This document shows positions 1 through 11,783 of a stretch of 11,783 nucleotides of DNA, piece after piece. Source of the DNA: Candidatus Rifleibacteriota bacterium. GTDB lineage: Bacteria > Riflebacteria > Ozemobacteria > Ozemobacterales > Ozemobacteraceae. The stretch's first letter is position 1; the number at the start of each line of letters is the position of its first letter. The translations under genes were made by a program, and so were the position numbers. Location of the stretch: positions 1-11,783 of the forward strand of contig JAKQKW010000154.1 in assembly GCA_029560455.1 (NCBI GenBank), read 5' to 3'. The notes under the pieces are model-generated. The model was not told where the DNA came from. It worked only from the letters and a program-made list of their open reading frames with translations, and searched no databases.

Positions 1-307
1 CATTCCAGACCAGGTAGCGCAGTTTGATACGGTGCTGTCGTGCATAATCTTCAATCGCCTTTGCCATTTCGGCTGGACCATTCTGGCGGTTAAAAAGGCT
101 GTTCAGGCTGGAGCACAGATATTTTTCGGTTTCGGCCAGCGAGCGCATGGTTGCCAGAGTTTCGTCTGCCTCGATTTCGAAATTCTTGAAGCGCAGGTCG
201 CGGGCGAGCGAAGCAAGATAAGCGCCGCCAGCCCAGAAGATGACCAGCGGCAGAATTACTGTCGCAACCATAAGTTTCAGCCAGGCCGAAAATTTGCCGT
301 CAATCAT
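1..307 (-). CDS. N-terminus of a second membrane sensor, probable SpoIIE-type phosphatase paralogue (partial)
   Basis: This is the 5' part of a gene whose 3' end lies beyond the left edge; about 102 residues are visible. The start is the ATG at 307-305, with SD GGGAGG at 317-322 and a 9-nt spacer. It overlaps the end of the preceding gene by 8 bp, so translation is probably coupled. A short basic N-terminus is followed by one hydrophobic span at about residues 9-28 (WLKLMVATVILPLVIFW) and then a helical, charged extracytoplasmic stretch. The visible part resembles the N-terminus of the upstream 966-residue phosphatase. Both have a leucine/valine helix with LP(V/L) and a Trp at its end, a region of similar length, and then (R/K)(F/Y)(I/L)VWN, at residues 103-108 of the upstream protein. 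By that similarity it is probably another four-helix HAMP-PP2C sensor phosphatase, but no catalytic domain is visible, so this is inference. An adenylate cyclase or histidine kinase output domain would also fit. Confidence 0.75.
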   Translation of the reverse strand, partial: MIDGKFSAWLKLMVATVILPLVIFWAGGAYLASLARDLRFKNFEIEADETLATMRSLAETEKYLCSSLNSLFNRQNGPAEMAKAIEDYARQHRIKLRYLVWN

Positions 308-3200
308 GGCATTTTTCCTCCCGCCGCAGCATCAGAAAGGTCAGATCGTCATCCTGGTTCTCGGCCCAGGCGCGGTAACCGGCATGAATGCCCTGCCAGT
401 AAATTTCGAGATCCTCATTCCAGGCGCTTTTCAGCAGTTGCAGAAATCTTGGGTAACCAAACATCTCACCCGATTTATTGGTAGCTTCGATAATGCCATC
501 CGTATACAGAATCATTGTTTCGCCGGGTTTCAGGGTTGCGGTTTTTTCTTCTGACCGGTTTTTTGCAGAACTGCCGAGCGGAAACCCTTTTAGTTCCATA
601 AGCTCTGCAGTTTCACCATGCGGGCCAATTATCGCCGGGTAACAGTGGCCGGCATTGGCGATGACAAAACTGCCGGTCTGGCAGTCGAAGTCGAGGCACT
701 GGGCGGTCATCATGCGTCGCCAGTCTCTTTTTTTGAGTTCCTGAAGAATCTGACTGCCTCTGAACAAAACTTCCGCCGGCCCCGGGAAATCTTTTGAAGC
801 TGCGGCAATCATGGCCTTCATCATCGCCATGATCATCGCCGCCGGGATACCGTGCCCGGCCACGTCGCCAAAAAATACCCCGAGACGGTTGCCCGGCAGG
901 TCAAAGTAATCGAAGTAGTCGCCACCCATTTTGCTCATGAACAAAGAGCGGGCAAAAAGTTTTATCTGCCGGCGCCGGTAATTTTCTGCCGGGAGCAGAC
1001 CAACCTGAACGGTGGTGCCGATTGACAGCTCGTGCAGACCTTCTACTGTCTGGTTAAAGGCGTCGACCAGCAGACCGAGCTCGTCATCACTGCCATGGGG
1101 AACCCTTACGCTGTAGTCGCGGTTTTTAACCTTTTCGATGCCGCGTGCGAGGCTTTCTACGGGTGCAAGCAGTCTGGTTGCGAAAAGCATGATTATGTGT
1201 CTGAGAATTATGATGGTCAGCAGCATGGCGAAACCGATGACAATCTGAAGATTAAAAATCTGGCGGTCGATCAGGTCGGCCGGGTAAAGGGCCGCAAGAA
1301 TGCCGTGGGCGATTTCATTGCCGGCAATCGAGGTAAATAGCCAGGCTTTGCCATTGACTTCAACATGGTCGCTGGTGACGATCCTCCGACTGCGTGTCTG
1401 GAGCATAAGCTTCTTGATCAGCGGATTTTCAAGGTTGGTTGTCGAGAATATTTTTTCAGACGAGCTTTCCATGACGGCCAGAGTTCTGGGCTTGAGCTCG
1501 TCCGCTGACTTTTGCAGTCTTTCGCCGATAAAATCGCGAATGAAGGCAGATTTTTCCCATGAAAGCAGTATCAAGCCCCAGTTTAAGCCGCGATCCGGTG
1601 CACCGGTAAATTTGAGATACGCCAGTCGCTCGCTGTCGCCGGTGCTGAGAGTCGAAAAGCGGTTCAGAGCCGCAAGGAAGAAATACAGCGATTTATCGGT
1701 ACTCGAAATCTGTTCGAGAATCGTTTCGCGGCTTTTAAAACGGGGGTTGCTTTTTGGCTGGCTGAAAAAATCGAGCCCGCCCTGCATCAGTGCAATGCCC
1801 ATTTTTGAGGCCTGGTTTGTGGTGTTGGAGATGTAAAAGCTGTAATTTTCAGAGTCTTCGAGCAGGCCGCCTTCCTGAGGGCGTATTTCTTTGAGAAGCC
1901 TTTTCAGCCGGTCAATTTCAGCGTCGGGCCAGCGACTGCTGCCATAGCGGCGGTTGCGTTCGTCGACAAAAGTGTTCAGCCTGGCAGCGAGAGACGTTGC
2001 TGATTCAGGAAAACGCAGGTCGAATTCTTTGAGAACGCGTAATGATTCCTGATGGGCAGAGTTAAGCAGCTCACTTCTCTTTTCGTGGAAAAACTCGTAG
2101 CCGGCCGAGAGCATCAGCAGCAGGGGCAGCCCATTTGAGAAGACGAACAGCAGCAGCATTTTGTGTTTAACCGACAGGCACCAGTGCGGGTGTCTCAACA
2201 GCAGGCAGGAGAAGAAAAAAGCGGCACAAAAACCTGCTGACAATATCTTGCCAAGAGTTCTGGCCGCCAGATCTTCTGCTGATGGCAGAAAGTTTTTGCG
2301 CAGATAGCTGACGAGAAGCAGATCGGGGCTGGCCTGGCGCACGTTCACGAGAAATTTGTGGCTTTCGCGCATTGCCATGCCGTCAGCTTCGAATTTTCTT
2401 ATTTCCAGCATGATTTCGGCCTGCTCTTCGGCGCTGGCAGGCAATCCAGACGCTTCATAGGAAAGGGTTTTAACCATTGCCGGCCGCTCTGATTCGGTTT
2501 TTTTTGCAGCCTGACTGATAAAAGTTTGCGGGCCAAGAAACCTGCCGGTCAGTTCGGCGTCAAGAAAGCATGCGAGTGAAAAATTGCGCCCGGGGTAATA
2601 CCAGAGCAGGCGTTGCTGTTTTTCGAGAGAAACAAACAGGCATTTGCCACGGGTACCTGGTTTTAGTGGCTCAAAAAGCTGATTCTCGAAGAGAAATTGG
2701 CCAAAGTAACCCCGCAGCAGGTTGATTTTACCGGCGACGGTCTGCAGGCCAGCCGGGTTAGACGCCGGATCATTGCGATAAACATCTGCCAGCAGATGCA
2801 TAACCTGATACATGCTTTTGAGAATGAACTGAAAGCGCTTTTCGTCACTCAGAGCAGTATTGATCGAACCATCTGGATTCCAGACAATAAAACGCACCCG
2901 GTTGGCAAGAAAGCGCCTGAAAGATGCCATTTTATTTTTCAATTCAGCATCGGGGTTGGCAGAGGCGTCTACTCTGGCAAAGTTTTGCTGCAACAGGGCG
3001 TGAAAAAACGTTTCGTCAGAATGAAAGGCTTCGAGCCGGTCGAGCTGTAGATTGAGGCGATCCTGGGCATCAGAGATCGCCTGTCGGCTGACCGAGCCGT
3101 AATAACCCGAGAGAACAGACCAGATAAGAAAAACCGGCAGCAGAACCAGCAGCATCAGCTGCAGCAGTCTGGTGATCAATTTTCCTGGCTGGGTTTGCAA
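300..3200 (-). CDS. Four-helix membrane sensor with HAMP and SpoIIE-type PP2C serine phosphatase
   Basis: This 966-residue inner-membrane protein should sense an envelope signal and dephosphorylate a cytoplasmic phosphoserine protein, by family usually a STAS anti-anti-sigma factor as with RsbU/SpoIIE. Hydrophobic spans lie at about residues 9-32, 314-336, 344-368 and 649-673. They leave two large extracytoplasmic regions (33-313 and 369-648) with no family that I recognise. HAMP follows at about 674-727 (LLAPVESLARGIEKV...DELGLLVDAFN). The phosphatase domain covers about 745-960. Its metal-binding motifs are intact: GGDYFD (Asp761), FGDVAGHG (Asp779), NAGH (849-852), YTDGI (Asp901) and QDDDLT (Asp950-952). 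The start is uncertain. TTG at 3200 has a weak GGA about 10 nt upstream, and no in-frame ATG exists between it and the nearest upstream in-frame stop. The gene begins 38 bp after the upstream STN protein gene and overlaps the next sensor gene, so it belongs to that operon. No kinase or STAS partner is in the window. Confidence 0.9.
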   Translation of the reverse strand: MQTQPGKLITRLLQLMLLVLLPVFLIWSVLSGYYGSVSRQAISDAQDRLNLQLDRLEAFHSDETFFHALLQQNFARVDASANPDAELKNKMASFRRFLANRVRFIVWNPDGSINTALSDEKRFQFILKSMYQVMHLLADVYRNDPASNPAGLQTVAGKINLLRGYFGQFLFENQLFEPLKPGTRGKCLFVSLEKQQRLLWYYPGRNFSLACFLDAELTGRFLGPQTFISQAAKKTESERPAMVKTLSYEASGLPASAEEQAEIMLEIRKFEADGMAMRESHKFLVNVRQASPDLLLVSYLRKNFLPSAEDLAARTLGKILSAGFCAAFFFSCLLLRHPHWCLSVKHKMLLLFVFSNGLPLLLMLSAGYEFFHEKRSELLNSAHQESLRVLKEFDLRFPESATSLAARLNTFVDERNRRYGSSRWPDAEIDRLKRLLKEIRPQEGGLLEDSENYSFYISNTTNQASKMGIALMQGGLDFFSQPKSNPRFKSRETILEQISSTDKSLYFFLAALNRFSTLSTGDSERLAYLKFTGAPDRGLNWGLILLSWEKSAFIRDFIGERLQKSADELKPRTLAVMESSSEKIFSTTNLENPLIKKLMLQTRSRRIVTSDHVEVNGKAWLFTSIAGNEIAHGILAALYPADLIDRQIFNLQIVIGFAMLLTIIILRHIIMLFATRLLAPVESLARGIEKVKNRDYSVRVPHGSDDELGLLVDAFNQTVEGLHELSIGTTVQVGLLPAENYRRRQIKLFARSLFMSKMGGDYFDYFDLPGNRLGVFFGDVAGHGIPAAMIMAMMKAMIAAASKDFPGPAEVLFRGSQILQELKKRDWRRMMTAQCLDFDCQTGSFVIANAGHCYPAIIGPHGETAELMELKGFPLGSSAKNRSEEKTATLKPGETMILYTDGIIEATNKSGEMFGYPRFLQLLKSAWNEDLEIYWQGIHAGYRAWAENQDDDLTFLMLRREEKCHD
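317..322 (-). promoter_or_regulatory. Ribosome binding site inside the preceding gene
   Basis: On the minus strand this reads GGGAGG, 9 nt before the ATG at 307. It lies inside the last codons of the phosphatase gene. A nearer ATG at 313-311 is followed at once by a TGA two codons later, so the ATG at 307 is the usable start. This site decides the start of the second sensor gene. Confidence 0.65.
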
Positions 3201-3238
3201 GTGGTTTATTTCCGTGTTGATTAAATGTTGTTCCTGTT

Positions 3239-5083
3239 TCAGAACTCTGAGTCAAAAGCTTTGTCCGGGTCTGTCTCTGCATGCGCATCAGGCAGTGACT
3301 CACCGACTGTCAGAATATCTTCGGGGAATTTACGTGAGAACTGGCCGCAAAGATAGATTTTTTCTGCCGCCGGAATCTGACTTTGCAGCAGAAGCATCGG
3401 GCTCGATGCTGCAATCTGGCTTGAACTGTCGATCTGCAGATATCCGCCACTTTTGAAAGTCGTTTCAAGCCGATAGGAAACATTCAGCAGGCCCAGTTCA
3501 CTTGAGACAACAGACGGCTTAAGGTTGCCTTTCATTGTAGTTCCGTCAGTTTTAAAAACGAATTCGGCGGTTTTGTCATTTTGCAGAGAAAAAAACCGGG
3601 TGGAGCTTCGTGAGAGCGGGTTGGTGCTGATACCAATATTGAAACGCTGTGATCCAGACGCCCAGTCTTTGCAGATTTTTATCGCCAGATCTGTACCCCG
3701 GTCATCTGATATTATGGCGGCGCGGTTGCCCGAAACCGGGCTGACCCGGCCCGGAATACCGGCTTCCTTGAAGAACGAGTTGAGCATGAAAGCGGCAGAG
3801 GCCGCAGAAACAGCTTTAAGTGGTTCAGAAAATACAGGTTTGCCTGGTTTCAGCTGCATATCTTTGATCGCCCGTCGATTACCGACAAAGGTTATACCGT
3901 CTTCTTCGTGCAGGGCGCCGGCAGCCATGGCGATGATCCTGAGAAACATTTCACGATCGAGAGTTTCGTCAAAGCAGAACGCCGAAATTCTGCCGGAAAT
4001 ACTGCTGTCACATATCAGTCTGATAGCCTGCTGCCTGGCAAGGTCGTCAAGTGTTGACGACATGTCGGCATTCTTGAGTATCAGGGGTTTTTCGAGAGGC
4101 TCGGCAGTTGAATGCGGAATTTCTGTATAATGCCGCAGTGACTGGTCTTCTTCAGCCTGTCTTTCATCGGAAAGAGTGGTCGAGATACTTTTGTTATGTT
4201 CTGCATTTTCCGGGGTCAGCCGTCCATAAAGCTGAACTGGTGCCATCTGCCAGCCAATCAGCCATTCTGTTCCGGCCAGGTTTATGCGATGTTCTTCTGG
4301 CTTCTGGTATTGCAGAAAGATGTTGTCTGATTTCTGCAATCTGGCTTCAGATGCAACAAATTTCTCGCTGAAGGCGAACCTGATTTTACCGTCATCGTTC
4401 AGCGACGGGGTTCCGGTGATCGAGATTTTTTCTTTGCCTGTCTCAGAAGCGAAAGAGAGTGAAAAAGGCTGATTGTTTACGCCGTTGAAGGTGCATGAAG
4501 CAATGGTTTTGTCAGGGAGACTTTTCAGGTAAAAACTGATCCGAAGTGCGTGAACCGGTGTGTCGAGGGTTTCTTTGAGCTTTTTTATCTCATGGATGCC
4601 GGTTATGGGGCCGAATGCGACCATTATCTCAGTCTTTGGCGGAAACCAGAGGCTGACTTCAGGCATTTTCATAAGCTCGATCTGACTGCCGAGTTCAGAA
4701 AGGTGCCTGAACTCAAGACTGCTTATGACTATCGACTGGCGATCACTTTCGGGCAAAGAATCTTCGGGCACAATGACCCAGATATTGTCGTTTCTGCGAA
4801 CTTTCATGCGGTTAATTTTCGCCAGAAGGCTCATGGCCTCTTCGAAATAGACCGTTTCATTAAGTTTGAAATAACCGTTTTTCTGGTCAGGAAAAGCGCA
4901 GACGATGTTTATGCGGGCCTTCATGGCGAGGTCGGCAAAGGCGTCGGTCAATAACCAGCCTGAATAATCAGCCTTCATTTCTTTGGCCGCCATGCATGCC
5001 GGCAGTATCTGAATAATAAACAAAAGGCTGATGAGCAGGCCGGGCAGTGTGTTGCGGCAGTTTTTTATGAGTTTTTCTGTCAT
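3239..5083 (-). CDS. Exported protein with tandem secretin N0/STN and N1-like domains, no pore domain (second copy)
   Basis: This 614-residue protein probably acts in the periplasm. The ATG at 5083 is chosen because GAGGA lies 8 nt upstream and overlaps the stop codon of the preceding gene; a TTG 15 bp earlier lacks an SD. A signal sequence covers about residues 1-33 (hydrophobic LPGLLISLLFIIQILPA). I read two repeats of the same order. The first has STN/N0-like 41-107, N1-like 116-176 (ending LKETLDTPV) and a beta-rich module 178-285. The second has STN/N0-like 334-404, N1-like 420-480 and a beta-rich module 481-590. The stretch GTPSLNDDGKIRFAFS (229-244) recalls a conserved strand of secretin C-domains, but the rest of a pore domain is absent. 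The tail ends ETDPDKAFDSEF, matching the upstream paralogue. Homology to secretin N domains is by pattern recognition only. STN domains also serve as signalling domains in TonB-dependent transducers. Function unknown; export or envelope signalling are both possible. Confidence 0.82.
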   Translation of the reverse strand: MTEKLIKNCRNTLPGLLISLLFIIQILPACMAAKEMKADYSGWLLTDAFADLAMKARINIVCAFPDQKNGYFKLNETVYFEEAMSLLAKINRMKVRRNDNIWVIVPEDSLPESDRQSIVISSLEFRHLSELGSQIELMKMPEVSLWFPPKTEIMVAFGPITGIHEIKKLKETLDTPVHALRISFYLKSLPDKTIASCTFNGVNNQPFSLSFASETGKEKISITGTPSLNDDGKIRFAFSEKFVASEARLQKSDNIFLQYQKPEEHRINLAGTEWLIGWQMAPVQLYGRLTPENAEHNKSISTTLSDERQAEEDQSLRHYTEIPHSTAEPLEKPLILKNADMSSTLDDLARQQAIRLICDSSISGRISAFCFDETLDREMFLRIIAMAAGALHEEDGITFVGNRRAIKDMQLKPGKPVFSEPLKAVSAASAAFMLNSFFKEAGIPGRVSPVSGNRAAIISDDRGTDLAIKICKDWASGSQRFNIGISTNPLSRSSTRFFSLQNDKTAEFVFKTDGTTMKGNLKPSVVSSELGLLNVSYRLETTFKSGGYLQIDSSSQIAASSPMLLLQSQIPAAEKIYLCGQFSRKFPEDILTVGESLPDAHAETDPDKAFDSEF

Positions 5084-5091
5084 TGATTCTG

Positions 5092-5096
5092 TCCTC
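5092..5096 (-). promoter_or_regulatory. Ribosome binding site overlapping the upstream stop codon
   Basis: On the minus strand TTTTGAGGACAGAATCAATG places GAGGA 8 nt before the ATG at 5083, and the TGA of the upstream gene (5097-5095) shares bases with it. This arrangement implies translational coupling of the two STN proteins and argues against the TTG start at 5098. Confidence 0.7.
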
Positions 5097-6858
5097 AAAA
5101 TGAAGATTCGAAGGCATCGTCTGTTTCGCTGCCGCTCTCATCTTCTGCTTCATGTGAAAGATACCGCTGATCGGCAAACTGACTGTCTGACTTTGAGCCC
5201 GAAATAAAAAGGGAGGCAGTTGAGCTGCCCTTGAATTCAATTACCGGCCTGGAATCAGATTCTGATAAAGCCGACCAGAACACCAGTCTCAGCTTCAGAC
5301 CAGATTTAAGTTTGGCATTGGTTTGTATTTTAAGCCCAGGCTCAGCCAGATGTGGCATTCTGACGGGGAGAAGTTCAATTTTGGCGTTCGCGTCTTTGAG
5401 CTCGATCTGTCTGTTGCTGGTCCGCCCTGTGTTTATGGCGAATGTTTCAGTAAAATCACCCGTGGCAGACCGCAGCGAAAGTCGGCTGTCGAAAAGCACG
5501 GGCGGGCGATCGAGTTCAGACACCAGGCGTATGAGGCTGTCAGTTATCCTTGCAGAACCGGCGAGAATGATTGCATTTATAATCCGGTCAGATGCTACAC
5601 GACAATTTGCCGGGGCTTCAAGAGCATCAAGGCAGGATTTCAGTATGGCGGCAGTGGCTTCTGAATCAGAATATTGCAACCTTTTTGTAATGTTGTAACC
5701 AAATTCAAAGACGTCGACAAACCTTTTTTCAGGCGCGACCATCCAGGTGTTGCCGATTTTTCTGATGCCGCCGCCGACTGAGCGGGCGATACGGTTCATC
5801 TGTTCTTCAAAATACAGATCAGGCCCGAAAAAGAAAACCGAAATATTACCGCTCAAGTCTTTGTCTATCGCCAGGTTTCCGCCTTCAGCGGCTGCAATTC
5901 TGCCGAGAATTTTTTCAAATGGCTCATTAAGCAGCATCAGATTCATCTGGTTTTCTGAATCAGACTTGGTTGTGACAATGTTCAAGTCGTTGCGGCCAGC
6001 GAGATTTCTGTTAATTTTTTTGTAGTTTTTTTCAGGAAATGGTCTTAAAAGGCGGGCGTTCCAGTTTACGGTCACAGCGTTGCCGTTGTTGTTAAGAGTC
6101 AGGGAATTCTGTTTCTGAACGCTCCGCCGCAACTGTGAAGCCGTGCTTTTGCCGGCGCCGGAATAATTGTCGCTGGTATTTTCAACCGCCAGGCTGAAAG
6201 AGCCTGACGCATCGCAGGCAAATGAAAAAGTTGCGGCGACCGGTTCGCATTCAGGGTCTGCCAGTTCAAGAAAAAAGCTGGTATTTGTAAGCAGATGAAG
6301 TGAAATGGAAGCAGCCTGCAGTGAATTGTCAGCGCTAATATCAAGCTGCAACTCGGCCGGAACTGCCGGCTTTTCAAGACTTCGAAAGTATTCTGCCGCA
6401 GCGGCTTCCCTGCTGTGTTCTCCGCAAATGATGCCGGCATTGATAGATGGCACCATGAAGGTTAAGGTGTCGGCGCAATCGCTGTCGTTTTTGCGGGCCA
6501 TGAGACTGTCTATCGGGCCAAAAGATGGATAAAAGAACTTCCAGCCCGGGTGGTTCTGAAAAGTCTGCCGCTCTCTGGCTGTGATCAGCCAGATCGATCC
6601 GGTGCGGTCGGCGGTACAGTCTGCGGCTCCGGCGATTGCCCGAAGCTGTTCGATATCGTTCAGTGACTCCGATAGTCTGAAGTCGCTGAGATTGCGGTCC
6701 GGCGAATTGACGATCAGGTTCAGTCTCGCTCTGGTGGCTAGAGTGTGCAGCCGAGCCAGAAGGCCATTTCCAGAAAAGCTTTTTGCCTGGGCGGTATTTA
6801 ATACCAGGCAGAAGAAAGAAAACAGCAGAAAAAGCCTTGAACGGCTGAAAAACAGCAT
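5095..6858 (-). CDS. Exported protein with tandem secretin N0/STN and N1 domains, no pore domain (first copy, operon leader)
   Basis: The ATG at 6858 has SD GAGGG 8 nt upstream. The 587-residue product has a signal peptide (residues 1-25, LFLLFSFFCLVLNTAQA, probable cleavage after AQA). Like its neighbour it looks like two repeats. The first has STN-like 28-95, weak N1-like 102-166 and a beta-rich module 167-275. The second has STN/N0 303-376, N1 385-451 and a beta-rich module 456-555. The second half is the clearest: NEPFEKILGRIAAAEGGNLA, then DKDLSGNISVFF, then GNTWMVAPE follow the N0 pattern of secretins such as PilQ and GspD. ASDRIINAIILAG...LVSELDRPPV follows the N1 pattern. A secretin would continue into a 200-300-residue pore domain, but here about 100 beta-rich residues follow and then an acidic tail, ETDDAFESSF. 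It is therefore not a functional secretin on its own. It could be a scaffold, pilotin-like partner or periplasmic signal relay for the co-transcribed phosphatases. The promoter and dyad just upstream make it the first gene of the operon. Confidence 0.82.
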   Translation of the reverse strand: MLFFSRSRLFLLFSFFCLVLNTAQAKSFSGNGLLARLHTLATRARLNLIVNSPDRNLSDFRLSESLNDIEQLRAIAGAADCTADRTGSIWLITARERQTFQNHPGWKFFYPSFGPIDSLMARKNDSDCADTLTFMVPSINAGIICGEHSREAAAAEYFRSLEKPAVPAELQLDISADNSLQAASISLHLLTNTSFFLELADPECEPVAATFSFACDASGSFSLAVENTSDNYSGAGKSTASQLRRSVQKQNSLTLNNNGNAVTVNWNARLLRPFPEKNYKKINRNLAGRNDLNIVTTKSDSENQMNLMLLNEPFEKILGRIAAAEGGNLAIDKDLSGNISVFFFGPDLYFEEQMNRIARSVGGGIRKIGNTWMVAPEKRFVDVFEFGYNITKRLQYSDSEATAAILKSCLDALEAPANCRVASDRIINAIILAGSARITDSLIRLVSELDRPPVLFDSRLSLRSATGDFTETFAINTGRTSNRQIELKDANAKIELLPVRMPHLAEPGLKIQTNAKLKSGLKLRLVFWSALSESDSRPVIEFKGSSTASLFISGSKSDSQFADQRYLSHEAEDESGSETDDAFESSF

Positions 6859-6872
6859 TTAGATTACCCTCG

Positions 6873-6882
6873 CAAAATTTTG
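6873..6882. repeat. Short palindrome CAAAATTTTG in the operon leader
   Basis: This perfect 10-bp palindrome lies between the -10 box and the SD of the first operon gene, close downstream of the expected transcript start. A related CAAAATTT lies at 6903-6910 next to the -10 box. It could be a second operator-like site. Short AT-rich palindromes also occur by chance. Confidence 0.25.
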
Positions 6883-6896
6883 ACTCTGACCGGGGA

Positions 6897-6902
6897 ATTA
6901 TA
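6897..6902 (-). promoter_or_regulatory. Promoter -10 box of the STN/phosphatase operon
   Basis: The minus strand reads TATAAT, a perfect sigma-70-type -10 box, 38 nt before the ATG at 6858. No good TTGACA lies 16-18 nt upstream; the bases there read roughly CCGCAA and belong to the dyad at 6917-6931. A poor -35 with a dyad on top of it would suit an activator- or repressor-controlled promoter. The transcription start should fall near 6890. Confidence 0.5.
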
Positions 6903-6916
6903 CAAAATTTGGCAGG

Positions 6917-6931
6917 TTTTGCGGGGCAAAA
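6917..6931. promoter_or_regulatory. Perfect dyad TTTTGC-NNN-GCAAAA at the -35 position, candidate operator
   Basis: TTTTGCGGGGCAAAA is a perfect 6-bp inverted repeat with a 3-bp centre. Its near end is 14 bp upstream of the -10 box, so it covers the -35 zone of the operon promoter. No T-run follows on either strand, which argues against a terminator. Size and place suit a dimeric DNA-binding protein, but the regulator is unknown. Confidence 0.35.
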
Positions 6932-6961
6932 GTCTGATTTTTTTATTCGGCGGAGGAAATG

Positions 6962-7114
6962 TTAAGAGATGTGCCCGGGTCGGGGGGAGTTAAAAGAAGC
7001 TCTGATTATCTCGGCCAGAAATGCCGAACCGGCAGTTCCTGCAGCCAGAACAAGGGCGTCGACAATCGAGATTCTGAACCCGGGCAAGAATTGTTCTTTT
7101 GAAGAAACCTGCAT
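6962..7114 (-). CDS. Small putative single-span membrane protein, 50 residues
   Basis: The ATG at 7114 is preceded by GAAAGGA (7122-7127) with a 7-nt spacer, which is what makes this short frame credible. The peptide starts MQVSSKEQFLPGFR. A hydrophobic, small-residue-rich span covers about residues 16-36 (IVDALVLAAGTAGSAFLAEII), and a short basic tail with SPRPGHIS ends it. Closely spaced Gly/Ala/Ser (AAGTAGSA) would allow helix-helix packing in a membrane. The frame stays open upstream to a GTG at 7195, but that start has no SD. The gene lies 103 bp upstream of the STN operon on the same strand, so read-through into the operon is possible, although the operon has its own -10 box. I do not recognise a family. 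A toxin-type or regulatory small membrane protein is possible, and a non-coding frame cannot be excluded. Confidence 0.45.
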   Translation of the reverse strand: MQVSSKEQFLPGFRISIVDALVLAAGTAGSAFLAEIIRASFNSPRPGHIS

Positions 7115-7148
7115 CAATATATCCTTTCGCAGTATCCTGCTGTGGTAT

Positions 7149-7176
7149 ATTTTATCATGTACCGTTTCGAAAACAA
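7149..7176 (-). promoter_or_regulatory. Candidate promoter for the small membrane protein gene
   Basis: On the minus strand TTGTTT (7176-7171) is followed after 16 nt by TAAAAT (7154-7149). Transcription would start about 27 nt upstream of the ATG at 7114. The match to TTGACA/TATAAT is moderate, and the spacer holds the palindrome TTTCGAAA (7165-7172). Confidence 0.35.
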
Positions 7177-7246
7177 CAGACCCTGAATTTGCCACAAGGC
7201 AGCCATATTACGCTCGTTCAAGAACAGAAAAGTCATTCATAGGATA

Positions 7247-7252
7247 GAGGAG
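7247..7252 (+). promoter_or_regulatory. Ribosome binding site of the SH3 protein gene
   Basis: GAGGAG lies 8 nt before the ATG at 7261 and fixes that start. The 146 bp between 7115 and 7260 must hold the plus-strand promoter. The best candidate is a weak CTGAAT, 17 nt, TATTAC arrangement near 7183-7211, which is not strong enough to call. Confidence 0.6.
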
Positions 7253-7260
7253 AATTACCA

Positions 7261-8253
7261 ATGCTTCGAGCCGGCTTTTTGCAGAATACTGCTCTGATGA
7301 TAATGACCATTGCAATTCTGATTTTCTGCCCATTGGCAGAGGCCGAAGAACAGATTTACCAGTATGGCAAGTTTGCCGCCGGGGCCAAAGTTTACCTGTT
7401 TGCCGACAAGGTTAACCTGCGGGCGGCCCCCTCGACATCGGGGCGTGTCGTTGGCAACCTTCCGGTTGGCACTGAACTGAAGACACTCGATGAGCCTTAC
7501 GGAGAATTCTCCATGTCGGGTTTTGCCGCTCCGTGGTACAGGGTACAGTCGGTTTCTCAACCGGAAGTTCAGGGGCATATCTGGGGTGGTCTGCTGTCGC
7601 TTGCCTCGATCAATTTCGAAGACTCAGGGAAAAAGCTGACGCTGGTTTCGGGTATTACCGGGTTTGGTGAGTTCAATTTTGCCGGCGAGTGCCGCGTGAT
7701 TTCTGAAGGGCAGATTATTGCCAGGGCACCGTTTAAATGGATTGCCACCATGATGGGCCAGGAAAAGAATTATGGCTACAATGTAAGGGTTGATGAACTG
7801 CCCTGGAAGGGGACTCAGGATATCAAAAAGGTCTTTCAGATTAACTGCGGTTATGATGCCTGTGGTTACACGCGCGGCAACATTCTGTTTTTCTGGACCG
7901 GCAGGGAAATCTTAACTGGCCCCACTGCCGAAGAAGTATCTGAAGCCGGGGTTTTTCATGTTGAATCTGTGTTTGTCTTTCCGGGCGATGAAGGGCTGGG
8001 AGAGAAATCTCTGCTGTTGCGTACCACTACCAATGAAGAAGCGGACAGTGAAAATGGCGTGGCAGCCTCTGCGAAAAAAGTCGAGACTCTTTATACCTGG
8101 AACGGGAAAGCCTGGGAGGCCGGCAGTCCGGTTGAGACGGTTCTGACTCCCGTATCAGAGAACTCTGGCAATAACGAGTCAGTCGAATCAGCCAAAAATG
8201 GCGACGAAGGTAGAGAAGATGCTGCCGGCAGCGCCGATGATACCGAAAATTAA
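7261..8253 (+). CDS. Exported bacterial SH3-domain protein
   Basis: This 330-residue protein has a signal peptide (residues 1-28: hydrophobic TALMIMTIAILIFCPLAEA, probable cleavage after AEA). The Cys in it lacks a lipobox, so it is probably soluble or wall/periplasm-located. A bacterial SH3 domain (SH3_3 type) covers about residues 42-114. Its signature is VNLRAAPSTSGRVVGNLPVG, then WYRV and GHIWGGLLS. Such domains usually bind peptidoglycan or protein ligands and are often attached to cell-wall enzymes, but no enzyme domain is visible here. Residues 115-290 are a beta-rich region that I do not recognise, with three cysteines (144, 196, 201) and a YTWNGKAWE motif near its end. Residues 295-330 are a low-complexity acidic tail. 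The gene is monocistronic, with divergent genes upstream and the permease gene converging downstream. The start is supported by the SD at 7247-7252. The SH3 call is firm; the biological role is open. Confidence 0.87.
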   Translation: MLRAGFLQNTALMIMTIAILIFCPLAEAEEQIYQYGKFAAGAKVYLFADKVNLRAAPSTSGRVVGNLPVGTELKTLDEPYGEFSMSGFAAPWYRVQSVSQPEVQGHIWGGLLSLASINFEDSGKKLTLVSGITGFGEFNFAGECRVISEGQIIARAPFKWIATMMGQEKNYGYNVRVDELPWKGTQDIKKVFQINCGYDACGYTRGNILFFWTGREILTGPTAEEVSEAGVFHVESVFVFPGDEGLGEKSLLLRTTTNEEADSENGVAASAKKVETLYTWNGKAWEAGSPVETVLTPVSENSGNNESVESAKNGDEGREDAAGSADDTEN

Positions 8254-8269
8254 GCGCTGCAAGGTTTTT
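8228..8269 (+). terminator. Possible intrinsic terminator of the SH3 protein gene
   Basis: GCAGCGC (8228-8234) and GCGCTGC (8254-8260) form a perfect 7-bp GC-rich stem. A 19-nt loop contains the end of the coding frame, and AAGG and five T follow. The large loop and a competing palindrome GCTGCCGGCAGC (8221-8232) make it uncertain. Only 14 bp separate the two convergent stop codons, so a terminator must overlap coding sequence. Confidence 0.4.
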
Positions 8270-9026
8270 AGCTGAACCAGCCGTTTGCTGCCGCGTATCT
8301 GGCAAGCATGCTGAGGCACATCAGAACCACCAGAACCCTTAAGTATCGTGGATTTATGCGCAGCAGGCAATATGAACCTGCGGCGGCACCGATTAATTGC
8401 CCGACCATCATTGTCAGGCCCGCAATCCAGACTACTTTTCCAACAATGAGAAAAACCGCCAGACTGGCGATATTGGTGGCAAAATTGAGAGTTTTGGCGA
8501 TTATGGTGGCGTCGATCATGCCGTGCCCTCTGAGCGAAACGCCAGCCAGGGCAAAAAACGAACCGGTTCCGGGGCCGAACATGCCGTCATACCAGCCAAT
8601 TGCCGGCACCAGCAGTCGCTGATACAACTGCGGTGACATGCGTGGCTGATTGTTCACTTCTGATGGGGTTGGAGCCAGCAGAAAATAAGCTGCGATAATT
8701 ACGAGAACTATCGGAATAACGAAACCCAATACCTTCGCATCGACGAATTGCACGGCGACGGTTCCGGCAAGAGCCCCGACAAAGGCTGCCAGCATAAGAA
8801 ATCTTACGTCGGACCAGTTCACCTTGCGTTTCTTGAACATGATAAAAGTGGCGGTGCCGCTGCCGATAGAGCTCTGCAGTTTATTGGTGCCGAGGGCGGC
8901 GTGCGGCGGAATCCCGCTCAGAATAAGTGCCGGTATGGTAACCAAGCCGCCACCACCGGCAAGCGTGTCGATAAAACCAGCTATTCCGGCAGCGAAAAAG
9001 AGAAAGCCAAGCATTTCATAAGTCAT
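8268..9026 (-). CDS. yfcA: YfcA-like TauE/SafE (TSUP) membrane permease
   Basis: This 252-residue inner-membrane protein belongs to the TSUP family (formerly DUF81), whose members export or import sulfite, sulfoacetate and related organosulfur anions. The match to E. coli YfcA from memory is clear along the length. It covers AGFIDTLAGGGGLVTIPAL (16-34), LGTNKLQ (45-51), the mid-protein hallmark GWYDGMFGPGTGSFFAL (144-160), KTLNFATNI (178-186) and GQLIGAAAGS (209-218). About seven or eight hydrophobic helices fall into two homologous halves, each opening with a G-rich loop, and the usual length is about 250-270 residues. The ATG at 9026 has only a weak GGA about 8 nt upstream, and an in-frame stop lies just before it, so no longer form is possible. 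The substrate cannot be inferred, since no sulfur genes lie nearby. The gene has its own extended -10 promoter and converges on the SH3 gene. Confidence 0.92.
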   Translation of the reverse strand: MTYEMLGFLFFAAGIAGFIDTLAGGGGLVTIPALILSGIPPHAALGTNKLQSSIGSGTATFIMFKKRKVNWSDVRFLMLAAFVGALAGTVAVQFVDAKVLGFVIPIVLVIIAAYFLLAPTPSEVNNQPRMSPQLYQRLLVPAIGWYDGMFGPGTGSFFALAGVSLRGHGMIDATIIAKTLNFATNIASLAVFLIVGKVVWIAGLTMMVGQLIGAAAGSYCLLRINPRYLRVLVVLMCLSMLARYAAANGWFS

Positions 9027-9069
9027 GTCGGAGATCCAGGATTTTCAGGTTAAAGGAGGTTCAGAGAAA

Positions 9070-9078
9070 ATGATAGCA
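9070..9078 (-). promoter_or_regulatory. Extended -10 promoter of the permease gene
   Basis: The minus strand reads TGCTATCAT, an extended -10 element (TGn plus TATCAT, 5 of 6 matching TATAAT), 43 nt before the ATG at 9026. No good -35 is seen, which extended -10 promoters tolerate. The predicted leader is about 35 nt long and contains ACCTCCTTTA, the complement of an SD. Confidence 0.45.
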
Positions 9079-9123
9079 TATATCTCAAAGCAACTGTTTT
9101 AGTGGTAGCAGGTTTTCTGACGG

Positions 9124-9765
9124 TCATTTATCGCCAGAATTCTGCCGGTCGGTTGCAATGACATGATCTGCCAGAACATGAAGGGCCTGCAGATTTTCGG
9201 GGTTCTGGTAAACCGCCTGAAACAGTTTGAGGGCCTGCGGGTCATTTTTTTCGAGCCAGCCGAAGCTTTTTTTGGGGCCGCAATACCACTGATTGCGCAG
9301 CTGAAAGTAGATCATGAGTATTTCGACTGCCAGCCAGCTGCGACGGTAAAGAGATTCGATACTGTTGCCGGAAGCACGCTGCAGCATTTTTCTGACCCAC
9401 TCGATCGAATGCTTGCGCTCTTCTTCGGCAACAGGTGCAGGACCCTTGAGAAATCTTTCATGCAGCCTTTGCAGAAAAGCGCGGCCGGTTCCGTCCATGT
9501 CCTGCAGGCAGCGGCCGTCGTGCAGTCGCAAAAATTCATCATTGTCGGAGTTCATCGATTCGGTCGGGTAAAACCACGCGTCAAGGGAAAGTCCGTGAAA
9601 ACTACGGGCTTCTTTCTTTAATTCGGGCTTCTGGCAGAAGCAGGCAACATCAATATCGCTGTTTATATCAGCATCGCCGCGGGCACGGGAACCGTAGAGA
9701 ATTATGATGTCTGGCTGGAAGCGCAGTTTTAATTCTGTGACGAGAAGTTCTTCGAGATTTTTCAT
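9124..9765 (-). CDS. Pol-beta-superfamily nucleotidyltransferase with helical C-terminal domain
   Basis: This 213-residue protein has an N-terminal minimal nucleotidyltransferase domain (about 1-75). YGSRARGDADINSDIDVACF carries the GSxxRG and SDxD motifs, with metal ligands Asp37 and Asp39 and a probable third carboxylate at Asp62 (LSLDAWFY). The active site looks complete, so it should transfer a nucleotide from an NTP to an unknown protein, RNA or small-molecule acceptor. Residues 95-205 are predicted helical (EWVRKMLQRAS, SWLAVEILMIYFQLRNQW), as in the substrate-binding bundle of related enzymes. It resembles an MNT domain and a HEPN-like helical domain in one chain, but the RxxxxH RNase motif of HEPN toxins is absent and no separate toxin gene lies beside it. 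The ATG at 9765 has only a poor SD. It lies 79 bp downstream of the hybrid kinase gene on the same strand and may be co-transcribed with it. Confidence 0.82.
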   Translation of the reverse strand: MKNLEELLVTELKLRFQPDIIILYGSRARGDADINSDIDVACFCQKPELKKEARSFHGLSLDAWFYPTESMNSDNDEFLRLHDGRCLQDMDGTGRAFLQRLHERFLKGPAPVAEEERKHSIEWVRKMLQRASGNSIESLYRRSWLAVEILMIYFQLRNQWYCGPKKSFGWLEKNDPQALKLFQAVYQNPENLQALHVLADHVIATDRQNSGDK

Positions 9766-9802
9766 TGTTGTAATTCTGCTGCTCTTTCGCTGGAGTGCTT
9801 GT

Positions 9803-9824
9803 AATGATCGAATACAGCATCATT
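9803..9824. repeat. Inverted repeat between the kinase and nucleotidyltransferase genes
   Basis: AATGAT and ATCATT form a perfect 6-bp inverted repeat around a 10-bp centre in the 79-bp spacer. It is AT-rich with no T-run in the minus direction, so it is a poor terminator for the kinase gene. It may be a weak attenuating hairpin or a protein site, or chance. Confidence 0.2.
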
Positions 9825-9844
9825 TTAATACTGTTTTCTGCTAT

Positions 9845-11783
9845 TTACAATCCTTTTGCTGGCTGTTGCCGGTTCGTGTGCGTCGTGTTTGTCGCTGCTG
9901 CTGGTTGAGTTTCTGAATTCAACTGCTTCTCCGCTGCAGCAATGAACTGGTTAAGCTCGGTTTTCAGCTGACGCAGAATTTCATGGGCCAGCTCGATCTG
10001 GCCGTTGACGATCGATGCCTCAATAGCCCGGGCTTGGTTTTCAATGGCTTTCACCCCGAGATTTCCTGCAACTCCCGCGAGATTATGAACAAGAATCCTT
10101 GCCTCGTCATTTTGCCCTGTTTCGAGTGCTTTCTTAATTTTGTCGGTGGCATCAGCATGATTAAGGCAGAACTTTTTCATTACTTTAATCAGCATTGCAA
10201 TGTTGCCGCCTATTCTTTCGAGACCGGCTTCGACGTCCATTCCGGGAATCTGTGGCAATTTCTGAATTGCCTGGCTTTGTTTTTCAGAAGCTTCACTGAT
10301 CGCCGATACTGATCTGTCGGTGTGGGTCCATTGCAACAGCTTACGGAAAAGCTTCTGCGGGTCTATGGGTTTGGTTACGTAATCGTTCATGCCAGCCTGC
10401 AGAGCCTTTTCACGATCGCCAGACATGGCGCCTGCTGTCATGGCAATCACAGGCAGCTGGCGGAACTTTTCCTGAAGTCTTATGGCTCTGGCGGCGGCAT
10501 ATCCGTCCATTTCCGGCATCTGCACGTCCATCAGAACGCAGTCGAATTGGTGCTTTTCCAGCATTTGCAGAGCAATCAGGCCGTTACCTGCTATTTCAAC
10601 AATGATTCCGGTTTTGTTGAGGAGCTCTGATGCAAAATCCTGATTGATTTCATTATCTTCGACCAGCAGAATTCTTAAACCCTTAAGGTCGGCAAGGATT
10701 TCCGGGCTAAGGCTTGCGCGGGAACTTCGTCTTGGGATCGACACGTCTTTGTGAAAAACCCTGAGGATCGTGTCAAGAAGTGTTGATAAAGTAAAAGGCT
10801 TGATCAGCAGAGCTTCAAGTTCACTGCCGATGCTTTTTTCTGCAATGATTTCCTGGCCAAATGGAACGACGCTGATGATAGGAATTTGCCGGCCGCCTTC
10901 AACTTCTGTCATCGATGATTTTCTGATGGCTCTGATTGCTTCGGGACCGCTGATGCCCGGGAATTTCCAGTCGAGGAGGATAAGGTCGAACCGGCGCACG
11001 GCGACGCGTGAAGAAAGCCGCTCTGAGGCCTCTTCTAACGACCTGGCGGTTGAAACAACGAAAGAAAGCGATTGCAGCTGCGACCTGAACGCGTTCAGTG
11101 ACGATTCACTGTCATCGATAACCAATACGTTGAGCCCTCTGAGATCAGATGTGGGGTGCAACGGTTGTCGCTCTGCCGCTACCGCCAGTTTGACGGTGAA
11201 ACGAAAAATGCTGCCATGATTAGGGACCGACTCAATTTTTATTTCACCGTTCATGGCGTCTATAAAGCGTTTGCAGATTGCCAGGCCGAGCCCGGTTCCG
11301 CCAAAGCGGCGGGTGATTGAACTGTCAGCCTGAGTGAAGGGCTGGAAAAGTTTCTGCTGCTGTTCTTCAGTCATGCCGATGCCAGTGTCGCTTACAGTGA
11401 AACGCAGCCAGGCAAAGTCATTTTCGCGTCGGGCAACTTCTGACGAAATGACGATCTCGCCGGATGGGGTGTATTTTACGGCATTGTTGGCGAGGTTGAT
11501 CAGTACCTGTTCGAGTCGCAGCGGGTCACCGATCAGTCTGGTCGGCACTTCGGGCGAGGTCAGAAAGACGACTTCGAGGCCTTTTTCCTGGGCTTTGCCG
11601 GTGATAAGGTCAGACAACTGATCGAGAATGTCATCTAGATCAAATTCGATTGTCTCAAGGCTTATTTTACCGGCTTCGGCCTTCGAAAAATCGAGAATTT
11701 CGTTGATGATGCCGAGAAGATTGTCGGCTGCAACCGTGATTTTTTTTATATAGCCGCTCTGACGGGGAGTCAGATCGGTCTGC
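9845..11783 (-). CDS. Hybrid histidine kinase, C-terminal part: HisKA end, HATPase, REC, REC, Hpt (partial)
   Basis: The frame is open to the right edge, so the N-terminal sensor and the phospho-His box are missing. About 645 residues are visible, numbered here from the edge. Residues 1-55 are the second helix of the HisKA dimerisation domain (LLGIINEILDFSKAEAGKIS). HATPase_c follows at about 60-200, with its N box (NLANNAVKYTPSG), DTGIGM and FGGTGLGLAICK. Receiver 1 covers about 217-343: IDDS, probable phospho-Asp271 in LLDWKFP and Lys328 in IKPF, but the conserved Thr/Ser is Val (IISVVPFG). Receiver 2 covers about 369-485 and is canonical: VEDNEIN, Asp419 in LMDVQMPEMDGY, Thr449 in AMTAG and Lys471 in TKPID. 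An Hpt domain covers about 515-620, with His566 in HNLAGVAGNLG. A Gln/Thr-rich tail ends it. This is the BarA/EvgS-like phosphorelay layout, passing phosphate His-Asp-His to an unlinked response regulator. No partner is in the window. Confidence 0.95.
   Translation of the reverse strand, partial: QTDLTPRQSGYIKKITVAADNLLGIINEILDFSKAEAGKISLETIEFDLDDILDQLSDLITGKAQEKGLEVVFLTSPEVPTRLIGDPLRLEQVLINLANNAVKYTPSGEIVISSEVARRENDFAWLRFTVSDTGIGMTEEQQQKLFQPFTQADSSITRRFGGTGLGLAICKRFIDAMNGEIKIESVPNHGSIFRFTVKLAVAAERQPLHPTSDLRGLNVLVIDDSESSLNAFRSQLQSLSFVVSTARSLEEASERLSSRVAVRRFDLILLDWKFPGISGPEAIRAIRKSSMTEVEGGRQIPIISVVPFGQEIIAEKSIGSELEALLIKPFTLSTLLDTILRVFHKDVSIPRRSSRASLSPEILADLKGLRILLVEDNEINQDFASELLNKTGIIVEIAGNGLIALQMLEKHQFDCVLMDVQMPEMDGYAAARAIRLQEKFRQLPVIAMTAGAMSGDREKALQAGMNDYVTKPIDPQKLFRKLLQWTHTDRSVSAISEASEKQSQAIQKLPQIPGMDVEAGLERIGGNIAMLIKVMKKFCLNHADATDKIKKALETGQNDEARILVHNLAGVAGNLGVKAIENQARAIEASIVNGQIELAHEILRQLKTELNQFIAAAEKQLNSETQPAAATNTTHTNRQQPAKGL

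Follow-up and report, generated by a model that had tools for sequence, protein, structure and literature searches.

A possible envelope-signaling operon in Riflebacteria that combines pore-less secretin-like proteins with membrane-anchored SpoIIE-type phosphatases

Introduction

What could proteins built from the N-terminal domains of secretins be doing next to membrane phosphatases? To our knowledge, the outside signals that drive bacterial SpoIIE/RsbU phosphatases are poorly known. The phylum Riflebacteria is known largely from metagenomes. A contig from a “Candidatus Rifleibacteriota” bacterium (GenBank accession number JAKQKW010000154.1), analyzed here over positions 1 to 11,783 (the window), encodes two secretin-like proteins, A and B, beside membrane phosphatases. 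The combination is unusual and may serve to carry signals from one side of the envelope to the other. Among the literature matches listed, none addressed such a pairing in its title or the start of its abstract; these came from the open PMC library, which leaves out most subscription papers and preprints.

Results

Gene arrangement. On the minus strand, to which all coordinates below refer, the genes follow in transcription order as B (5095..6858; 587 amino acids [aa]), A (3239..5083; 614 aa), the phosphatase P1 (300..3200; 966 aa), and the beginning of P2 (2..307), which is cut by the window edge after 102 N-terminal residues. The spacing is 11 bases between B and A and 38 bases between A and P1, and P1 and P2 overlap by 8 bases, in agreement with the initial annotation. 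The first of these distances depends on the start assigned to A, which the list of open reading frames (ORFs) places at a TTG codon at position 5098. In 10 of its 11 homologs (P0014 to P0023; the eleventh, P0024, is a fragment), the protein begins with a methionine at the codon that corresponds to ATG 5083 of the window, so we place the start there, which gives the 11-base gap. P1 starts with TTG at 3200, and homolog P0031 has a methionine at the same codon; among the 15 homologs inspected, several are called ~13 to 17 residues downstream, which would widen the A-P1 gap to ~83 bases.

The tight spacing suggests cotranscription of all four genes, which had been described as lying behind one TATAAT box. 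This hexamer, a possible −10 element, is indeed present at 6897..6902 and is the sole minus-strand copy in the window (the plus strand has 2). The promoter scan paired it with no −35 element: 9 promoter-like pairs were detected in the window, against 8.2 expected from shuffled sequences, and the hexamer is part of none of them. Promoter evidence is thus poor, and the case for a single promoter comes from the gene spacing. No Rfam matches or tRNAs were found in the window.

Secretin-like domains of A and B. Both proteins are probably exported. As read by eye, B opens with a signal peptide, after which come two apparent N0(STN)-N1-beta units and then an acidic tail. Its second N0/STN domain (residues 305 to 380; 5719..5946) matches positions 4 to 77 of the PilQ model (16.2 bits, E = 0.0041), and the second N1 domain (residues 393 to 453; 5500..5682) matches Pfam Secretin_N with 20.4 bits, under the curated cutoff of 28.2. 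Across the B family, Secretin_N is found in all 13 members at E ≤ 1 (best E = 6.5e-8), with precomputed Pfam assignments in 11 of the 13 homologs, and at the same threshold the HofQ model matches 13 and the PilQ model 12 of the 13 members. Protein A appears to be a distant paralog of B (20% identity over 387 columns in BLASTP, E = 7e-6; HHalign probability, 93.8). Its first N0/STN domain (~residues 46 to 122 of the listed ORF; 4733..4963) is hit by the PilQ and HofQ models at residues 55 to 122 and by PDB entry 4ar0; the second (~residues 340 to 422; 3833..4081) is seen with the family profile and the HofQ structure 2y3m. The two top PDB matches of the A family profile are the N0 domains of HofQ (2y3m, E = 0.0027) and PilQ (4ar0, E = 0.04). 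At E ≤ 1, the PilQ and HofQ models each match 11 of the 12 aligned A sequences; Secretin_N is found in only 3 of the 12, even at E ≤ 10.

In the A and B proteins of the window itself, all N0/N1 matches fall under the curated cutoffs, those to the PilQ and HofQ models scoring 13.6 to 16.5 bits against cutoffs of 284 and 554. These matches are weak singly but consistent across both families, which makes the STN/N1 naming given to the two exported proteins believable. Their description as pore-less holds as well: the secretin pore domain (PF00263) has no match in A or B of the window or in 13 B family members at E ≤ 1, or in 12 A family members at E ≤ 10. No solved structure gave a significant match to the B family profile (the best were an S-layer protein, with E = 0.076, and, with E = 0.43, a type II secretin), and the predicted structure of B, with a pLDDT of 30.9 and every residue below 50, supports no fold reading.

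Each protein appears to contain two N0-N1 units with a beta-rich region after each, only some of these units having a profile match of their own. An internal duplication was not detected when halves of the same protein were compared with HHalign (probability, 3.7 for B and 0.9 for A). The two-unit reading instead comes from profile matches at two places in A and from matches between halves of the two proteins: the first half of A gives 86.7 with the second half of B and 65.9 with the first, and the second half of A gives 45.8 with the second half of B (0.4 with the first). Although only 20% identical, A and B also share a C-terminal AF[DE][SP]xF motif. It is present in B as TDDAFESSF (5098..5124), with AF[DE]SxF at the C terminus of all 13 aligned sequences, and in A as PDKAFDSEF (3242..3268), being found in 11 of 11 sequences that reach the C terminus (12 aligned). 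Of the 353,769 possible pairs of 9-mers from the two proteins, 14 score as high as this one, itself counted; by plain identity (5 of 9), 60 pairs are equal or better. Pfam matches of the window ORFs and of the A and B families include no plug or outer membrane barrel domains, and PADLOC, used to look for a phage or defense origin, found no match for P1, A, or B.

Phosphatases P1 and P2. Hydropathy analysis of P1 predicts four membrane helices (residues 6 to 38, 315 to 338, 346 to 369, and 646 to 682), which delimit two ectodomains. Ectodomain 1 (~residues 36 to 312; 2265..3095) is modeled with pLDDT of 83 to 91 in most blocks, and ectodomain 2 (~residues 371 to 640; 1281..2090) has a weak stretch at residues 480 to 500. 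They are followed by a HAMP domain (residues 672 to 724; 1029..1187; PF00672, 43.0 bits) and a SpoIIE/PP2C phosphatase domain (residues 769 to 960; 321..896; PF07228, 143.7 bits), whose fold begins at ~741. The PP2C-type fold is borne out by structural matches to solved phosphatases. In the P1 family, Asp761 and Asp779 are present in 47 of 52 sequences (the other 5 have gaps), and Asp901 and Asp951 are present in 49 (2 gaps and 1 other residue); aspartates bind metal in phosphatases of this fold. The output domain and its catalytic residues thus appear intact, in line with the initial annotation of P1 as a four-helix HAMP-PP2C protein. Structural matches outside residues 732 to 965 were barely tested, so we assign no fold to either ectodomain. 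The order of strands and helices in ectodomain 2 would fit a dCache domain (in which a long helix carries two PAS-like modules), and models of the chemoreceptor McpB align loosely with P1 (rmsd, ~11); no match to Cache families was found in the 52 P1 family members at E ≤ 1.

P2 had been taken for an apparent paralog of P1, and its 102 N-terminal residues, all that is available for judgment, point to a probable distant one: BLASTP gives E = 0.04, and a profile built from 52 P1 sequences can be aligned with P2 over 98 residues (18.8 bits, with a single-comparison E of 1.5e-8). The only Pfam match of this fragment is a subthreshold one to T2SSM (E = 0.036, 14.7 bits against a cutoff of 27.8), which we take as a chance resemblance of a membrane helix plus a coiled coil. 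None of the 8 window ORFs scanned encodes RsbV/RsbW-type partners, a STAS domain, or a stand-alone anti-sigma kinase, the sole GHKL ATPase among them being a domain of a hybrid histidine kinase.

Relatives and linkage. Protein searches, each of which scored only the ~8,000 candidates with the most words in common, returned 13 matches for B and 11 for A, all at least 66% identical, and 52 for P1, down to 23%. Of the 14 matches with a named organism, 11 are from Riflebacteria. Matches of A and B have a same-sized longest contig four times (1,383,591, 1,093,140, 13,848, and 7,446 bases), those of B and P1 twice (13,848 and 105,589 bases), and those of all three once (13,848 bases). The initial annotation had tied its reading to conservation of the neighbors; where this could be examined, A-B-P1 linkage is thus seen in some relatives, as judged by equal size of the longest contig rather than by gene order. 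Most matches show no such coincidence, which is uninformative, as a single longest contig is given for each cluster matched. On the 13,848-base contig, identity to the window is 71% for B, 75% for A, and 81% for P1; A and B appear to diverge faster than P1.

Pattern scans of genome contigs with B and with the B family alignment produced 94 and 187 pattern matches, respectively, with none passing tblastn, and scans of viral contigs with A1, A3, and A2 confirmed no relative. Because each scan used two to six short patterns, these absences carry little weight. When plasmids were scanned with P1, 208 records were returned, none covering 80% of the protein; among the 10 records listed, the annotation names a SpoIIE phosphatase in six and is missing in four.

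Discussion

Comparison with known systems. PilQ and HofQ also have N0 followed by N1 domains, but A and B have no pore-domain match, their N0-N1 pair is apparently doubled with a beta-rich region after each, and they are encoded by two adjoining genes. In TonB-dependent transducers, STN is followed by a plug and an outer membrane barrel, neither of which is matched by Pfam in A or B. FecA-FecR uses an STN-type domain as a periplasmic contact with an inner membrane regulator. In the available text on PupB-PupR, the PupB N-terminal signaling domain likewise binds the periplasmic beta and STN domain of inner membrane PupR (PMC7186176). In contrast to both pairs, the window ORFs scanned include no TonB-dependent barrel, sigma factor, or FecR-type regulator, and the inner membrane partner would be a phosphatase.

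For P1, the top solved phosphatase domain by Z score is that of SiaA from the Pseudomonas aeruginosa SiaABCD system (Z = 25.8 over 240 residues; rmsd, 2.3; entries within 1 are tied). SiaA, too, is a membrane protein with HAMP and a PP2C output, and we know of no secretin-like partner for it. P1 scores 56.8 bits with the NCBIfam SiaA equivalog model NF038263, far below the cutoff of 700, and has four membrane-spanning regions and two ectodomains, whereas the available text on SiaA gives it two such regions (PMC7647112). RsbU, RsbP, and SpoIIE resemble P1 in having a helical linker ahead of a PPM/SpoIIE catalytic domain but operate by partner switching, for which the window ORFs scanned provide no RsbV, RsbW, or sigma partners.

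Proposed mechanism and alternatives. Our preferred though tentative reading, which we hold to be somewhat short of probable, is an envelope-signaling operon in which exported A and B dock on P1 and P2 and gate their PP2C output toward a STAS antagonist. After export, B and A would probably assemble with each other in the periplasm through their tandem N0-N1-beta units, with N0 packed against a beta domain. Precedents are PupB-PupR and, in the text available, the binding of the GspD N0 domain to the all-beta HR domain of inner membrane GspC (PMC3169554). This assembly would dock on both four-helix phosphatases at their ectodomains, and its occupancy or conformation would reach a coiled-coil linker by way of the last membrane helix and the HAMP domain. 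The linker would switch the PP2C dimer, as the available part of one report proposes for PPM phosphatases behind HAMP and other sensors (PMC12143880), and the switched PP2C would dephosphorylate a cytoplasmic STAS-type antagonist. We infer the assembly, its docking, the direction of signaling, and the substrate, as we do the sensor or adaptor role proposed in the initial annotation, of which the domain naming and the lack of a pore-domain match stand. The reading is favored by the tight spacing and the 8-base overlap, the same-sized contigs among A, B, and P1 matches, the family-wide secretin N0/N1 matches, and the apparently intact output domain of P1; the lack of a STAS protein or stand-alone anti-sigma kinase among the ORFs scanned counts against it. 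As the P1 family is wider than those of A and B, many P1 relatives may work without them, an objection blunted by the faster divergence of A and B and by the limited number of candidates scored.

The large P1 ectodomains could also sense without A and B. On that view, A and B would bind mainly each other, or a common third partner, through the C-terminal peptide, in an envelope task unrelated to signaling, and the phosphatases would be mere neighbors. The peptide kept in both proteins despite their low identity fits this idea, which we nevertheless rate as unlikely: the genes overlap or are closely spaced (though operons do pair unrelated genes), and the same-sized contigs suggest linkage kept over ~20 to 30% divergence. 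We assign the same low probability to A and B being accessory periplasmic rings, derived from duplicated secretin N domains, for the cell's own type IV pilus or type II secretin, with the phosphatases regulating that machine without touching them. Secretins use N0/N1 domains to build rings, A and B find their best matches in the pilus and DNA uptake secretins PilQ and HofQ, and the T2SSM match of P2, here read as chance, would point the same way. However, neither protein has a pore-domain match, no pilus or secretion family reaches its cutoff among the 8 window ORFs scanned, and the linkage suggested by same-sized contigs is to a phosphatase. That A and B are secretins that have decayed and lost their function, as the missing pore match might suggest, is highly improbable given full-length open frames in most relatives found, mean column identities of 82% (B, 13 sequences) and 78% (A, 12 sequences), and the conserved C-terminal peptide.

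Implications. In its strongest form, which seems to us rather doubtful, the envelope-signaling reading makes pore-less tandem N0-N1 derivatives of secretins a soluble relay in the periplasm, one that gates transmembrane PP2C phosphatases directly. If true, this relay would add a third kind of STN-based envelope signaling to those of TonB-dependent transducers and of secretin contacts, and its output would be serine/threonine dephosphorylation. If pore-less secretin N domains do feed SpoIIE/RsbU phosphatases, STN/N1 domains would be general periplasmic signaling modules, and Riflebacteria would have a testable route that leads from the envelope into partner switching.

Secretin N domains in A and B

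Genes A (positions 3239 to 5083) and B (5095 to 6858), both on the minus strand, encode probably exported proteins with secretin N domains (N0/STN, N1). In single-sequence scans, the Pfam search gave no match for A and a below-threshold Secretin_N match for B, and PilQ and HofQ models scored 13.6 to 16.5 bits. Across the families, Secretin_N is found in all 13 B members (E≤1, best 6.5e-8) and in only 3 of 12 A members, even with E≤10. At E≤1, the NCBI PilQ model is found in 11 of 12 A members (best 6.5e-6) and in 12 of 13 members of the B family (best 8.4e-5); the corresponding figures for the HofQ model are 11 of 12 (best 0.00012) and 13 of 13 (best 4.4e-7). In a comparison with 177,635 PDB sequences, the top two matches of the A profile are HofQ N0 (E 0.0027) and PilQ N0 (E 0.04), at two separate places in A; the B profile gives none that is significant, its best rows being an S-layer protein (E 0.076), followed by a type II secretin (E 0.43). 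The secretin pore domain has no match in A, B, or the family members scanned (13 B, 12 A), and this result, with the family-wide PilQ/HofQ matches, bears out their initial annotation as pore-less secretin N-domain proteins.

Judged from sequence comparison (BLASTP E 7e-6, 20% identity; hhalign probability 93.8), A and B are distant paralogues. Their predicted domain order is read as signal peptide, N0-N1-beta, N0-N1-beta, and acidic tail. The two-unit arrangement is partly inferred, since comparing the halves within each protein left the duplication undetected (probability 3.7 for B and 0.9 for A), whereas the second half of B matches the first half of A (86.7). The acidic tails are variable except for a C-terminal AF[DE][SP]xF peptide (3242 to 3268 in A, 5098 to 5124 in B), present in all 13 B rows and in every A row complete to the C-terminus (11 of 12); within the window, only A and B end in this motif. 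For a nine-residue length picked after the peptide had been seen, 14 of 353,769 A-B pairs, this one included, score as high, and by identity alone 60 are equally good. The peptide is a possible docking or sorting signal.

Gene organization

Downstream of A lie P1 (300 to 3200, minus strand), encoding a four-helix HAMP-SpoIIE/PP2C membrane phosphatase, and P2 (2 to 307, minus strand), its probable distant paralogue, of which the window edge leaves only the 102 N-terminal residues. The four genes are arranged as initially described, with gaps of 11 (B-A) and 38 bases (A-P1) and an 8-base overlap of P1 and P2. The ATG at 5083 was taken as the start of A, in place of the TTG at 5098 in the ORF list, because 10 of 11 A homologues (P0014 to P0023) begin there. 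The least certain start is that of P1, a TTG codon that is M in homologue P0031; in several of the 15 P1 homologues inspected, the start is called about 13 to 17 residues further in.

The TATAAT box proposed for this run exists as a lone minus-strand copy at 6902 to 6897 but falls outside all 9 promoter-like pairs in the window, which are no commoner than in shuffles (8.2). The run is closed by a divergent plus-strand gene upstream of B (7261 to 8253) for an SH3-domain protein, probably exported, judging by eye; this gene and the apparent A/B/P1/P2 operon could have a common intergenic regulatory region. The window (1 to 11783) has 29 terminator-like sites, many of them intragenic, where shuffles predict 15.6 (sd 4.2). 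Beyond lie minus-strand genes for a TauE/SafE-type membrane exporter (8268 to 9026), a Pol-beta-type nucleotidyltransferase with a further C-terminal region (9124 to 9765), and a hybrid histidine kinase (9845 to 11782) that comprises ATPase, two receiver, and Hpt domains and is cut by the window edge. The nucleotidyltransferase shows partial matches to the PADLOC candidate family PDC-S09 (best E 5.6e-8 over ~41 residues).

Phyletic distribution and linkage

Searches with B, A, and P1, in each of which ~8,000 candidates were scored, gave 13 matches for B and 11 for A, all at least 66% identical and counting the window's own or near-identical copies, and 52 for P1, with identity down to 23%. The narrow spread seen for A and B may be genuine, or it may stem from their faster divergence. 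Of 14 matches with an organism name, 11 come from Candidatus Rifleibacterium, Riflebacteria, or Rifleibacteriota; the other 3 (P0012, P0048, and P0064) carry an Erysipelotrichia label, which we attribute to mislabelled metagenome bins. The longest contigs are of equal size for A and B in four cases, for B and P1 in two, and for all three in one (13,848 bases; identity to the window's proteins 71% for B, 75% for A, and 81% for P1 residues 1 to 660), which points to linkage on one contig, as distinct from adjacency.

Some B homologues are mosaic in the B alignment: P0009 matches P0007 at 98 to 100% identity up to column 360 and P0006 at 100% from column 421 onward, where P0007 and P0006 are 61 to 68% identical. 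P0005 switches less cleanly from P0002-like to P0006-like, and P0010 to P0013 resemble P0009 by eye. Intragenic recombination is favored over assembly chimeras because the pattern recurs across several sources.

Predicted signaling role

In other systems, N0-type domains serve as contacts with inner-membrane proteins: N0 of GspD contacts GspC (PMC3169554), and the PupB signaling domain contacts PupR (PMC7186176). Switching via dimeric coiled-coil linkers has been proposed for HAMP-linked PPM phosphatases (PMC12143880). Combining these contacts with such switching, we tentatively suggest, by analogy, that A and B relay signals to the phosphatases: like GspD and PupB, their N0-type domains would contact inner-membrane proteins, here the phosphatases, and the HAMP-side coiled-coil linker would switch PP2C output. 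It is rather unlikely that A and B, with their matches to PilQ and HofQ, are instead accessory to a pilus or secretion secretin; that they and the phosphatases, linked as their genes appear to be, are neighbors without contact is comparably doubtful.

The gene and domain observations of the initial annotation are confirmed, and its signaling interpretation is plausible but unproven. No description of A/B-like proteins combined with such phosphatases appeared among the papers listed in searches of one open-access library.
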